Positions 15,425 to 23,591 of a stretch of DNA of 38,090 nucleotides are shown here, piece by piece. Under the pieces are notes generated by a model. That model was not told the origin of the DNA. It did no database searches and saw nothing but the letters and a program-made list of their open reading frames with translations. Position numbers and translations under genes: made by a program. How positions within the stretch are numbered: position 1 is the stretch's first letter; every line of letters begins with the position of its first letter. The stretch comes from Acidobacteriota bacterium (GTDB lineage Bacteria; Acidobacteriota; Terriglobia; Acidiferrales; UBA7541), in NCBI GenBank assembly GCA_003224085.1, contig QHYK01000091.1:1-38090 (forward strand), written 5' to 3'.

Positions 15425-15664
15425 GCGCGCAGAGAGCTCGAGACTTAGAACTAGAGACAGAAAAGCCTTCCACAGTTTTCCCAGAGCAGACGGCTTGCCG
15501 AATAGGAGTTGCGACCGTATCCTTTCGTCAGTAGGAACCAACGGACGGCCTCCAGAAAGCCGCCCACACACAGAACCGAAAGCCCCGGCCGGCCAGCAGC
15601 CGAGGCTACAAAAAAAGACAAGAGCCGGGGTGAAGTCCGGCCTCTGCAAGTAGAATTCAGGATC

Positions 15665-16456
15665 ATGGCCCTAGAAAACTGCGCACTGTGCAGGGGAACG
15701 GGATGGAAGCTGGTGCCGCGGCCAGACGGCGCGGGCAGGGTCGCCGTGCCCTGCGACTGCGGCATGCAGGAGCGCGCCGGGCGCGTGATGGAACGCGCGC
15801 GCGTCCCGAAGCGCTACGAACACTGCGATTTCGAGAGCTACAGCACCGACGTCGGTTCCACGCAGGAGCAAAGACATTCCCTGCAACAGGCGAAATTGTC
15901 GGCGCAGGGATTCGTTCGCGATTTTCCCGGGTCTTCCGAAAAGGGGTTGCTCTTCATGGGGCCTTCTGGGGTTGGCAAGACGCACCTGGCAGTGGCGGCG
16001 CTGAAAGAGCTGATTCAGCGCGGGCATGTGGGATTGTTTTGCGATTACCGCGAGCTGCTGAAGGAAATTCAAGCGAGCTACAATCCGGCGAGCGAATCGA
16101 CAGAAATGAGAATCCTGGAGCCGATTCGAACGGTGGAAATTCTCGTGCTCGACGATCTTGGCGCGAGCAAGCCTTCGGATTGGGTGCGCGACATCGTGGG
16201 AATCGTCCTGAACGCACGCTACAACGAAAGCCGAACCACGGTTGTGACGACGAACTATCTGGACAATCCTGCCTCGGAAGGCGAAACGGCGCGGCTGCCA
16301 GGCGGAAAATTGTTGCCGCCAACGCGGGAAGATTCGCTCGAACAGCGGATCGGCAGCCGCATGCGCTCCCGGTTGTACGAAATGTGCCGCACCGTCGAGA
16401 TTTCCGCACCGGACTTTCGCCGCGAGAAAACGCAAGCCGGGCGCGCCCGGGCCTGA
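15665..16456 (+). CDS. DnaC/DnaI-like AAA+ ATPase with N-terminal zinc motif
   Basis: A 263-residue ATPase resembling helicase loaders, which bind and place the replicative helicase on DNA. An N-terminal metal site is suggested by CALCRG (C6, C9) and CDCG (C30, C32). The AAA+ core has Walker A GPSGVGKT (99-106), Walker B ILVLDD (159-164), a sensor-like TTVVTTNY (191-198) and an arginine-rich RIGSRMRSRLYEMC (228-241). The start is an ATG with AGGA just upstream. It follows the heat-shock cluster after a 240-base gap with no clear terminator. IstB-type transposition helpers are the main alternative, but no IstA gene is nearby. Confidence 0.88.
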   Translation: MALENCALCRGTGWKLVPRPDGAGRVAVPCDCGMQERAGRVMERARVPKRYEHCDFESYSTDVGSTQEQRHSLQQAKLSAQGFVRDFPGSSEKGLLFMGPSGVGKTHLAVAALKELIQRGHVGLFCDYRELLKEIQASYNPASESTEMRILEPIRTVEILVLDDLGASKPSDWVRDIVGIVLNARYNESRTTVVTTNYLDNPASEGETARLPGGKLLPPTREDSLEQRIGSRMRSRLYEMCRTVEISAPDFRREKTQAGRARA

Positions 16457-20134: not shown

Positions 20135-21277
20135 TTGGATTTCGAGCTGACGGAAGAACAAAAGCTGCTGCAAAACAGCGTGCGGGAATTTGCGGAATCA
20201 GAAGTACGCCCGTTGGCCAAGGAGCACGACGAAACCGGGCACTTTCCTCGAGCGTTGTTTAAGAAGGCGGCGGAGCTTGGCCTGACCGCGGTGGCGTTTC
20301 CGGAGAGCGAAGGCGGCGCAGGCTTCGATCACGTCGCCTACACCATCGTGATTGAGGAAATTTCGCGCTGCTGCGCTTCCACGGGCGTGATCCTTTCGGT
20401 CCAGAATTCCCTCTACTGCGATCCGCTTCATCGCTTCGGCACCGAAGAACAGAAAAACAAATTTCTGCAGCCCTACGCAAGAGGCGAAAAAATCGGCTGC
20501 TACGCGCTGACTGAGCCCCAGGCTGGTTCGAATGCCGCGGCGCTGCAAACCAAGGCAGTGAGAAAGGGCGACACTTACGTCCTCAACGGCACTAAAGCCT
20601 GGATCACCAACGGCGGCGCGGCGGACGCGGCGATTGTGTATGCCAATACGGATCCAGCGAAGGGCGAGAAAGGCATTACGGCCATCGTGGTGGAGAACGG
20701 CACACCCGGATTCAAAGTCGGCAAAGAAGAAAAAAAACTGGGTATCAACGCCACCGCGTGCTGCGAATTGGTCTTCACCGATTGCGCTGTGCCGGTGGCG
20801 AATCGCATCGGCAATGAAGGTGAAGGCTACAAAGTGGCTCTTTCGACGCTCGATGGCGGGCGCATCGGCATCGCCGCACAAGCCACAGGGATTGCTCGGG
20901 ACGCGTTCGAAGCAGCCCTGAATTATTCGCAACAACGCCTGGCTTTCGGCCAGCCCATTTCGCAATTTCAAGCGATTCAATTCATGCTTGTGGACATGAG
21001 CACGGAAATTGACGCCGCCCGGCTGCTGAACCGCAAAGCGGCGTGGAAGCAGGACACTGGCGCCCGCTTCAGCATGGACGCGGCCATCGCCAAACTGTTC
21101 GCCAGCGAAATGGCCACGCGCGTCACGCACAAAGCCATGCAGATTCACGGCGGCAATGGCTACAGCCGCGAGTATCCGGTCGAACGCAATTATCGCGACG
21201 CGCGCATCACCGAGATCTACGAAGGCACCAGCGAAATCCAGCGCTTGGTCATTTCTTCCCGGGTCCTAAAGTCTTAG
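20135..21277 (+). CDS. Acyl-CoA dehydrogenase (short-chain type)
   Basis: A 380-residue FAD enzyme that oxidises the alpha-beta bond of an acyl-CoA in fatty-acid or branched-chain amino acid breakdown. The motifs include CYALTEPQAGSNAAA near 129-144 (FAD/substrate), WITNGG and the catalytic base E363 in YEGTSEIQRL (362-371). Length and sequence fit the short-chain/butyryl-CoA dehydrogenase group. The start is a TTG with GGAG about 10 bases before it, and MDFELTEEQKLL is the usual opening. The UvrC-like gene follows after 23 bases. Confidence 0.95.
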   Translation: MDFELTEEQKLLQNSVREFAESEVRPLAKEHDETGHFPRALFKKAAELGLTAVAFPESEGGAGFDHVAYTIVIEEISRCCASTGVILSVQNSLYCDPLHRFGTEEQKNKFLQPYARGEKIGCYALTEPQAGSNAAALQTKAVRKGDTYVLNGTKAWITNGGAADAAIVYANTDPAKGEKGITAIVVENGTPGFKVGKEEKKLGINATACCELVFTDCAVPVANRIGNEGEGYKVALSTLDGGRIGIAAQATGIARDAFEAALNYSQQRLAFGQPISQFQAIQFMLVDMSTEIDAARLLNRKAAWKQDTGARFSMDAAIAKLFASEMATRVTHKAMQIHGGNGYSREYPVERNYRDARITEIYEGTSEIQRLVISSRVLKS

Positions 21278-21300: not shown

Positions 21301-22485
21301 GTGCTGGAACTAGACAACAGACTGGAGTTTGACCCGGCACGGGCGGCAGAGGAGTTCTTCCCCGCCCTGCCGCCTCGGCCCGCAGTGTGTTTGATCGAGC
21401 CGCGCGAGGAAAAGGCCGAGCCGTTCCTGATTCGCACGCAGAACTTGCAACGGCGACTGCAACGCCTGCTGGGCCCTCCTGATCCTGCGAACAAGCGCCT
21501 CAATCTGCGCGACTTTGCACAGAGCATCCGCTACCGTATCACTGGCTCGCGGTTCGAACAGGCGCTCGCTTCCTATCAGCAAGCCAGAAAACTCTTCCCA
21601 AAACGTTATCGAAACCTGATGCGCCTGCGCCCTCCGGTAGTTCTCAAGGTGAATCGGCGCAATGCCTACCCGCGCTGCCATGTGACGCGGAAGATTTATT
21701 TCGATCAAGACGGCACGCCTGCGGGAGGCTCTTACTACGGGCCATTCCCTTCCCGCCGCGCGGCGGAATCCTTTGCCGAGCGCGTGTTGGATTTCTTCAA
21801 AGTGCGCCGATGCCAGATCAAGATTCGCCGCGATCCCGCTTTTCCGGGGTGCATTTACTCGGAGATGAAAATGTGCCTCGCGCCGTGCTTTGCCGGCTGC
21901 ACTAAGGAAGAATACGACGTGGAAGTGAATCGCCTGGTGCAATTCCTCGAAACCAGCGGCGCCTCGTTGCGGGCCGCTTTCGAAGAAGAGCGCGAAAAGG
22001 CCAGTGAGCAACTGGATTTCGAGCGCGCCGCCGCGCTGCACAGAAAAGTGGAAAAGCTCGACGAAGTTCTGCGCGGAGGGCCGGAAATCACGCGCCAAAT
22101 CCAGGATTTGCACGCCGTGATTCTGCAGCGTGCCGCGGAAGGACAAACCATCGGCGTCTTCGCCGTCCGCGGTGGCCGTCTGGCAGAGCCGTTCTTTCTT
22201 CGCTTCGCCGAAATCGCGAGCCAGCCGCGCTCCGTCGAACAAATCTTCCGCGACTATCTGGAATCATCCGCACCCGCGGAGAATGGCGAGCTCTCCGAGC
22301 ATTTGTCGCTGGTCTCCCGATGGTTTTACAGCAAACCGCGCGAGGGCGAGATTTTCTTCCGTGAAAAAGACTGGCCTTATCGTAGGATTCTTCGTGCCTG
22401 TTCGCGCTTGCTTACACCAAGTGAAAAAGCCGGAGAGAAAAGCACGGCGCCGGAATCTTCAGCATCACCCGAAGGAGCACAATGA
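21301..22485 (+). CDS. UvrC-like protein lacking recognisable nuclease sites
   Basis: A 394-residue relative of UvrC, the dual-incision nuclease of nucleotide excision repair. Four cysteines C171, C184, C192 and C196 match the UvrC iron-sulfur cluster spacing (PGCIYSEMKMCLAPC), and the UVR motif lies at about 225-258 (ERAAALHRKVEKLDEVL). The N-terminal GIY-YIG domain is degenerate: AVC replaces the GIY, FLIR replaces YVGK, and the position of the catalytic glutamate aligns with Ser/Tyr (SRFEQALASYQQ). The second part ends in the middle domain (FAVRGGRLAEPF), before any RNase H active site. So it looks like a non-cutting UvrC-family protein. The GTG start has a poor Shine-Dalgarno sequence. 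Its stop overlaps the next gene's ATG. Confidence 0.85.
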   Translation: MLELDNRLEFDPARAAEEFFPALPPRPAVCLIEPREEKAEPFLIRTQNLQRRLQRLLGPPDPANKRLNLRDFAQSIRYRITGSRFEQALASYQQARKLFPKRYRNLMRLRPPVVLKVNRRNAYPRCHVTRKIYFDQDGTPAGGSYYGPFPSRRAAESFAERVLDFFKVRRCQIKIRRDPAFPGCIYSEMKMCLAPCFAGCTKEEYDVEVNRLVQFLETSGASLRAAFEEEREKASEQLDFERAAALHRKVEKLDEVLRGGPEITRQIQDLHAVILQRAAEGQTIGVFAVRGGRLAEPFFLRFAEIASQPRSVEQIFRDYLESSAPAENGELSEHLSLVSRWFYSKPREGEIFFREKDWPYRRILRACSRLLTPSEKAGEKSTAPESSASPEGAQ

Positions 22486-23591
22486 CAAAATCCGCAACAA
22501 AGGAAGGGACCACGCGCTACGCCCAGCGATTTGCCGGGGGCTCCGCCGACGGCCATTTCCGAGAAGCGCAGAGAATGTTGCTCTCCTCGCTGGGAATCGG
22601 GACTTATCTCGGCCAGCCCAACGAAAACACGGATGAAGCCTACACGGCGGCTCTCATTTCCGCGGTGGAGAACGGAATCAACGTCATCGACACGGCCATC
22701 AACTACCGCTTTCAGCGCAGTGAGCGCAGCATCGGCGCGGCACTTGCGCAACTCGCCGCAAAGGGTTTCTCGCGCGAAGGAATCGTGTTGTGCACGAAGG
22801 GCGGCTACTTAACGCCAGATGGTTCAATGCCCGCCGATCCTAACGAGTATTTTTTTCGCGAATACGCCCAACGAGGGATTTTTAGCGCCAAAGATCTTGC
22901 TGCCGGCAGCCATTGCATGACCCCCAAATTCCTGAAGGACCAGCTTGGGCGCAGCCTGAAAAATCTGAATGTCGAATGCGTTGACGTCTACTATCTGCAC
23001 AATCCGGAAACGCAACTCTCGGAAATCCCAAGGCCTGAGTTTCTTCAGCGTTTGCGTGCGGCATTCGAATTCCTGGAATCGGCGGTGGAGGCTAGAGAGG
23101 TTCGTTACTACGGAATGGCCACCTGGAATGGTTTCCGTCAGGACCCGCGCGCCCGCGACGCCATGCAGCTTGCAGAAATTGCCCAGATTGCCCAGGAAAT
23201 TGCGGGGGGAATGCACCACTTCCGGTTCGTGCAGCTTCCGTTCAATCTGGGGATGCCCGAAGCGCTCACATTGGGAAATCAGATGCTGCGGGAACGCCAG
23301 CGAACCTTTGTGGAAGCGGCAGGCGATCTCGACATCACAGTGGTGGCAAGCGCGTCGCTCTTGCAAGGTCAGGTCGCCCGTAACCTGCCGAAGGCAGTTG
23401 CCGAAGCGTTTGGTCTTGAGAACGATGCGGAGCGAGCGCTGCAGTTCGCGCGATCCGCGCCAGGAATCACCACCGCGCTCGTCGGAATGTCCCGCGTGGA
23501 GCATGCCAAGGCAAACACACGGCTGATCGGCGTGGCTCCTGCAACCGAAGAAGAGTTCGGAAAGCTCTTTTCGCGCGGCGAAGGCGCTTGA
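22482..23591 (+). CDS. Aldo/keto reductase family oxidoreductase
   Basis: A 369-residue TIM-barrel enzyme that reduces aldehydes or ketones with NADPH. The catalytic tetrad is visible: D70 in NVIDTAINY, Y75, K106 in LCTKGGY and H173 in YYLHNPE. It is longer than most family members (about 320), with extra residues at about 110-145. GGAGCACA precedes the ATG, which overlaps the stop of the UvrC-like gene in ATGA, so the two are translationally coupled. The substrate is unknown. Confidence 0.9.
   Translation: MTKSATKEGTTRYAQRFAGGSADGHFREAQRMLLSSLGIGTYLGQPNENTDEAYTAALISAVENGINVIDTAINYRFQRSERSIGAALAQLAAKGFSREGIVLCTKGGYLTPDGSMPADPNEYFFREYAQRGIFSAKDLAAGSHCMTPKFLKDQLGRSLKNLNVECVDVYYLHNPETQLSEIPRPEFLQRLRAAFEFLESAVEAREVRYYGMATWNGFRQDPRARDAMQLAEIAQIAQEIAGGMHHFRFVQLPFNLGMPEALTLGNQMLRERQRTFVEAAGDLDITVVASASLLQGQVARNLPKAVAEAFGLENDAERALQFARSAPGITTALVGMSRVEHAKANTRLIGVAPATEEEFGKLFSRGEGA

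Follow-up and report, generated by a model that had tools for sequence, protein, structure and literature searches.

What would a relative of UvrC do in a cell if it could no longer cut DNA? The question arises from the window, by which we mean the whole 38,090-nucleotide stretch of an Acidobacteriota contig (QHYK01000091.1) analyzed here, in which one gene encodes a 394-residue protein that an earlier note, made from the sequence alone, had described as a UvrC-family member lacking both known active sites, which would make it a non-cutting partner. The open reading frame, which lies in a host genome of 159 contigs and 6.8 Mb (97% complete), is confirmed exactly, and its coordinates are collected with those of its domains and neighbors in Table 1. 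Both the start region and the length of the protein are conserved among relatives, most of which have open frames of similar length.

Table 1. The UvrC-like gene, its domains, and its neighbors, in positions of the window.
Feature	Position	Strand	Details
UvrC-like pseudonuclease gene	21301..22485	+	GTG start, TGA stop; start region and length conserved in relatives; dN/dS ~0.1
Degenerate GIY-YIG domain (residues ~12-107)	21334..21621	+	PAVC, FLIRT; Arg52 retained; Ser91 at the catalytic Glu position
Four-cysteine region (Cys171/184/192/196) with near-invariant Cys200	21811..21900	+	Aligned with UvrC-invariant cysteines
UVR (UvrB/UvrC) motif (residues 228-255)	21982..22065	+	Pfam, genome search, family profile
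C-terminal domain (residues ~265-371)	22093..22413	+	Co-linear with the UvrC UVR-to-RNase H segment up to residue 356
Aldo/keto reductase	22482..23591	+	ATGA overlap with the UvrC-like stop codon; local neighbor, no conserved partner
Acyl-CoA dehydrogenase	20135..21277	+	Ends 23 bases 5' of the UvrC-like gene; upstream in 47/52 close relatives with room
IstB/DnaC-like ATPase	15509..16456	+	4.8 kb 5' of the UvrC-like gene; homologue near in 15/21 distant loci

Domain layout and active-site residues

A full UvrC (L002), whose existence the earlier note had left as a question, is encoded elsewhere in the host genome, and Pfam divides it into a GIY-YIG domain (residues 19-95), a UVR motif (209-241), PF22920 (255-370), an RNase H domain (386-547), and an HhH domain (562-611). 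Alignment of the family profile with 12 UvrCs by hhalign pairs residues 16-356 of the 394-residue protein with residues 8-349 of L002 at 99.9% probability; neither Pfam nor hhalign finds the RNase H (PF08459) or HhH domains of L002 in the shorter protein. Because the protein stops ahead of RNase H, these alignments identify the family as the front half of UvrC rather than a random truncation. The second nuclease domain is thus missing, as the earlier note had proposed, with the refinement that the stretch linking UVR to RNase H in UvrC is still present. Placement of this C-terminal region comes from hhalign; a global MAFFT alignment pairs this region with the distal end of UvrC.

The window protein and L002 are 28% identical over residues 76-297. 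Pfam finds UVR as the sole domain in the 394-residue protein (E 5.5e-4; 20.0 bits, where the gathering score is 21.5), and the same motif reaches 23.3 bits, above that score, in a genome-wide search. The NCBIfam models NF005906 (an exonuclease-GIY-YIG-UvrC fusion, 121.5 bits) and TIGR00194 (uvrC, 91.7 bits) both score far under their cut-offs on the window protein, and each matches all 36 members of a diverse family alignment at E 0.001. Searched singly against the PDB with phmmer, the protein yields one match only, at E 0.51.

The GIY-YIG superfamily is described as being defined by the tyrosines of its GIY and YIG motifs (PMC1564403), and the earlier note had pointed to the active-site Tyr, Arg, and Glu as the residues to align with UvrC. 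Relative to L002, Tyr22 is replaced by Cys30, Tyr33 by Phe42, Gly35 by Ile44, Lys36 by Arg45, and the catalytic Glu83 by Ser91, the last pairing being the same in hhalign; Asn95 corresponds to Tyr103 (Arg104 by hhalign). Tyr and Glu are thus lost, and the central arginine is retained, Arg43 of L002 being equivalent to Arg52 of the window protein.

The family as a whole was scored in an alignment of 93 distinct members and 13 UvrCs (10 of which come from genomes with a family member), to which 28 further members were added. Not one of the 120 members with a residue at the position has the catalytic Glu, compared with 13/13 aligned UvrCs, and Leu, Tyr, His, Phe, Met, Gln, Ser, or Ile stands in its place. 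The GIY Tyr persists in 3/119 members (12/12 UvrCs), the YIG Tyr in 80/119, the YIG Gly in 6/119, and the central Arg in 96/119, with Ala in 19; the C-terminal Asn of the active site is absent from all 121 members, where Tyr (99), Ala (20), or Trp (2) is found. The best-preserved members (L029, L080, L086, and L174) also lack the Glu, the Asn, and the GIY Tyr. Misalignment was ruled out as the source of the missing Glu, as MAFFT, hhalign, and HMMER against the UvrC GIY-YIG structure 1yd6 concur. On these alignments, the loss of both known UvrC nuclease sites is well supported, and the central claim of the earlier note about this protein is borne out.

The Pfam GIY-YIG model failed to match any of 36 members at E 0.01, and the family profile matches the UvrC GIY-YIG domain 1yd6 at E 5.2e-6. 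An AlphaFold2 model built from the 36-row alignment has a pLDDT of 89 and a pTM of 0.84, with lower values (60-64) for residues 171-200. The top Foldseek match is likewise 1yd6, with a probability of 1.00 but an E-value of 0.03 and no match below 0.001, and VIA, of which only rows at Z 5 and above were used, aligns 85 residues with 1yd6 at Z 6.4 and an rmsd of 2.8, with an unrelated row at Z 6.2. The dead domain has likely kept the GIY-YIG fold, a view that derives mainly from the 1yd6 profile match and hhalign. Within it, Glu86 (120/120 members), Ser83 (120/120), Tyr92 (104/120), and Tyr103 (99/121) are conserved, and apart from Glu86, which is common to UvrC (12/12), no acidic residue is constant across members. 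Arginines are conserved as well, at positions 51 (109/119), 55 (115/119), 66 (97/120), and 70 (101/120), at none of which is Arg the commonest UvrC residue; they likely form a nucleic-acid surface.

A fold that is likely kept, the central Arg, the constancy of Glu86, and the common Tyr92 and Tyr103 could also belong to an active Cho-like nuclease, in which a rebuilt GIY-YIG site would cut via non-canonical residues; Cho, whose front half is similar, is described as an enzyme that incises on the 3' side (PMC1564403), and published GIY-YIG proteins include some with unusual active sites (PMC2630997), which leaves some room for an unrecognized activity. We consider such a rebuilt nuclease very unlikely: eight different residues occupy the Glu position, Arg gives way to Ala in 19 members, and the GIY Tyr is nearly lost, while Glu86, being equally present in UvrC, is no substitute catalytic residue and is joined by no other constant acid.

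The region that follows retains the UvrC cysteines. Residues 171, 184, 192, and 196 (spacing 13-8-4) align with UvrC Cys157, 169, 177, and 181 (12-8-4), in agreement with the earlier note, and all four are present in 121/121 family members. UvrC has been described as coordinating a [4Fe-4S] cluster (PMC8837605). Judging from the aligned ligands, the cysteine module of the window protein probably ligates a cluster too, of the [4Fe-4S] type. To our knowledge, the role of the Fe-S cluster in UvrC is not settled. A fifth cysteine, Cys200 (21898-21900), lies four residues past the CxxxC of the cluster in 115/121 members and 2/13 UvrCs.

The UVR motif, also recognized by the earlier note, is kept as well: Phe240 is found in 118/121 members and Glu241 in 120/121, Pfam detects the motif in 31/36 members at E 0.01 (missing it in five), and the family profile matches the UvrB UVR structures 2nmv (E 0.004) and 2d7d (E 0.0047). 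In UvrC, a UVR-like element is described as being needed for interaction with UvrB (PMC7835731).

Selection and distribution

A protein shorter than UvrC, with an interrupted frame in a few relatives (L088, L091), might be the product of a decaying pseudogene or an assembly artefact. Comparison of the window gene with eight relatives gives dN/dS values of 0.08-0.15, which are rough because dS ranges from 0.78 to 2.3. In six pairs, residues 1-107 give 0.06-0.18 and the remainder of the protein 0.07-0.14; the dead domain is constrained about as strongly as the rest. A dN/dS near 0.1, dead domain included, indicates a pseudonuclease that selection maintains rather than a gene in decay. Together with the similar-length open frames, the conserved start, and the spread across the class described below, it makes decay or artefact extremely improbable.

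The phylum was sampled with the family profile in 297 genomes at least 80% complete, 34 from the class Terriglobia and 263 from outside it. All 34 class genomes score at least 342 bits; outside the class, 243/263 genomes have a match, with a maximum of 157 bits, and 20 have none at E 1e-20. Among the matches listed outside the class, frames are at least 550 residues long, as expected of UvrC, the exception (G091) being a frame that enters a contig end. In a class sample of genomes at least 90% complete, 219/249 match at E 1e-50 or better. Families f3, f8, f9, and f10 account for 14 of the 20 genomes listed from the 30 without a match at E 1e-50; in these 30, the gene is either dispensable or was missed in the drafts.

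Distribution outside the phylum rests on a pattern-based scan (80 kept of 155 relatives), a plasmid search, and a viral scan. The plasmid tblastn returned 51 records, of which the 20 listed are uvrC or unannotated. One member (L158, positions 2-1162) lies at the end of a 41-kb viral-catalogue contig, IMGVR_UViG_3300012982_000015, and our guess is that this is host sequence, the contig being a mis-called viral or a prophage one. Another contig, titled Betaproteobacteria (L047), encodes a 64% identical member whose protein score equals that of G006:C45 from the window's own genus; the public title is probably wrong.

Besides their stronger match, two genomes of another Acidobacteriota family (f49), outside the class, each have a weaker one that scores about 100 bits (L189, 634 onward, and L190, 336 onward, both on the minus strand); no other relatives of the family were recognized among the 263 genomes from outside the class. 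These diverged relatives keep the four cysteines, have Trp at the central Arg, and show Tyr/Phe at the catalytic Glu position, the next residue being a Glu; Pfam finds no UVR in either, and the alignment has a gap where that motif belongs. A tree sets a joint group of 24 rows that includes the pair against 15 UvrC-type rows with 100/100 support, and within the group the pair nests inside the family (95/89), a placement of which we are unsure because of the unusual composition and long branch of these sequences. The missing motif indicates that UVR-based docking on UvrB is not indispensable in that lineage.

Genomic partners and possible roles

The host genome encodes a full-length UvrB (1027.5 bits) alongside L002, and searching the whole genome for UVR at E 0.01 returns three motifs, those of UvrB, UvrC, and the 394-residue protein. 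We propose that the protein, descended from an old UvrC paralog that was reduced to its front half and maintained after the loss of the GIY-YIG active site, docks on UvrB and DNA as a non-cutting NER partner; to this explanation as a whole, origin and role jointly, we assign a probability of roughly one half. At a lesion, the UVR motif would dock onto its counterpart at the C terminus of UvrB, and DNA would be touched both by the pseudo-GIY-YIG domain, with its many arginines, and by the cysteine module, probably of the [4Fe-4S] type. Rather than cut, the protein would tune how the real UvrC is recruited or when it acts. In the earlier proposal of a non-cutting partner, the site loss is the well-supported part; the partner role is the best fit to the conserved UVR Phe and Glu, to the three UVR motifs of the genome, and to the presence of UvrB and UvrC.

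A retained UVR with both cutting domains lost would suit equally well a dominant-negative brake that occupies the UVR site of UvrB, blocks UvrC, and so limits futile or damage-independent incision. Nothing separates brake from helper, and retention across the class suits both; we favor a matchmaker over a brake and regard the latter as unlikely. A doubtful extension of the partner proposal is that the cluster of this UvrB-docking Fe-S pseudonuclease might act as a redox- or damage-responsive switch that times incision by the true UvrC across the class.

Gene order was compared in 59 close relatives, with counts taken among those with room, and in 21 more distant loci. The earlier note had coupled the gene with the downstream aldo/keto reductase. 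The overlap of the two genes is real; as a sign of functional coupling it is uninformative, the reductase being downstream anywhere in 45/54 close relatives, at most 100 bp away in 22/54, and in none of the 21 distant loci (one of them without downstream room). A partnership with the reductase was dropped, the association being limited to close relatives. Upstream, a HIT gene occurs in 40/51 close relatives and a gene for an HU-type protein in 39/50; neither HIT nor the dehydrogenase was found in the 21 distant loci, and 10 of them have an HU-type homologue upstream in the opposite orientation. Eleven neighborhoods inspected by eye had no evident gene in common, and no NER gene was recognized as a conserved neighbor at the loci examined; gene order points to no clear partner. 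Anti-phage defence was also dropped as a candidate, there being no PADLOC match at E 0.01.

Gene order bears on one further explanation, in which the UvrC paralog would have left NER for another DNA transaction, for example replication or helicase loading with an IstB/DnaC-like ATPase, the cysteine cluster and C-terminal domain serving as DNA or protein contacts. In 15/21 distant loci (16 with L109), such an ATPase is encoded on the same strand as the UvrC-like gene, 3-858 bases upstream of it. Four of the five absences fall in loci with less than 630 bases of upstream sequence, whereas L098 lacks the ATPase despite having room. The diverged relatives without UVR would also fit. We hold this explanation possible but doubt it: the ATPase is near in only 5/30 of the loci L159-L188 (1.0-1.5 kb of upstream sequence each), it is not adjacent to the UvrC-like gene in the window, another ORF intervenes in some distant loci, such as L104, and UVR, which the genome search finds otherwise only in UvrB and UvrC, is retained outside the diverged pair. 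The ATPase, noted in the window and among loci L089 and L092-L111, starts with CxxCxGTGW, and in the window it sits downstream of dnaJ, a MerR gene, and a DnaK-like ORF (the last recognized from its translation).

If the protein is indeed a non-cutting NER partner, a pseudoenzyme regulator would join a textbook three-protein pathway. In UvrC, the cluster is not easily uncoupled from nuclease activity, and a pseudonuclease that retains the ligands and UVR would allow the cluster and docking to be studied in isolation.

Comparison with UvrC, Cho, and related architectures

UvrC itself (TIGR00194; L002) is co-linear with the protein over the span given above and has its cysteines and UVR in common; the family lacks the canonical GIY-YIG site, RNase H, and HhH, and the 100/100 branch separates it from the 15 UvrC-type rows. 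Escherichia coli Cho (PRK10545) is likewise a UvrC front half, with a single nuclease domain and without RNase H. In Cho, the UvrB-binding module is described as being replaced by a C-terminal domain of its own, unique kind (PMC1564403), whereas the 394-residue protein has a UVR. PRK10545 scores 11.3 bits on that protein (E 0.14; cut-off 367) and matches 14/36 members at E 0.001.

PRK07883 joins a DEDD exonuclease to GIY-YIG and the UvrC front half, and the corresponding NF005906 is the best NCBIfam match of the window protein, residues 17-357 aligning with positions 206-541 of a 563-position profile. The protein lacks the N-terminal exonuclease, and its 121.5 bits compare with a cut-off of 495; as a true UvrC also matches NF005906 (219.9 bits), the top ranking is merely suggestive. 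By layout, PRK07883 may be equated with the 'Cho-like+Exo' form of Actinobacteria described in PMC1564403. A split form of the exonuclease fusion was considered and set aside: in a search of the 297 phylum genomes with NF005906, none exceeded the cut-off, and the matches listed are mainly UvrC-like, so that the search does not discriminate. Separate frames of 275-422 residues that cover the exonuclease part alone are also among the matches listed.

In the open-access literature searched, we found no paper on an inactive Cho-like form. The 'Cho-like' subfamily that Dunin-Horkawicz et al. 2006 defined with one member, from Gloeobacter violaceus (PMC1564403), has an equal layout by its description there: GIY-YIG, four cysteines, and a UvrB-binding motif, without EndoV/RNase H, HhH, or exonuclease. 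That subfamily is ranked among GIY-YIG nucleases (PMC1564403), whereas the catalytic residues are lost in the aligned members of the present family. The layout itself has been known since 2006; what is new here is a Cho-like layout in which the catalytic residues are lost, present throughout most of a class.
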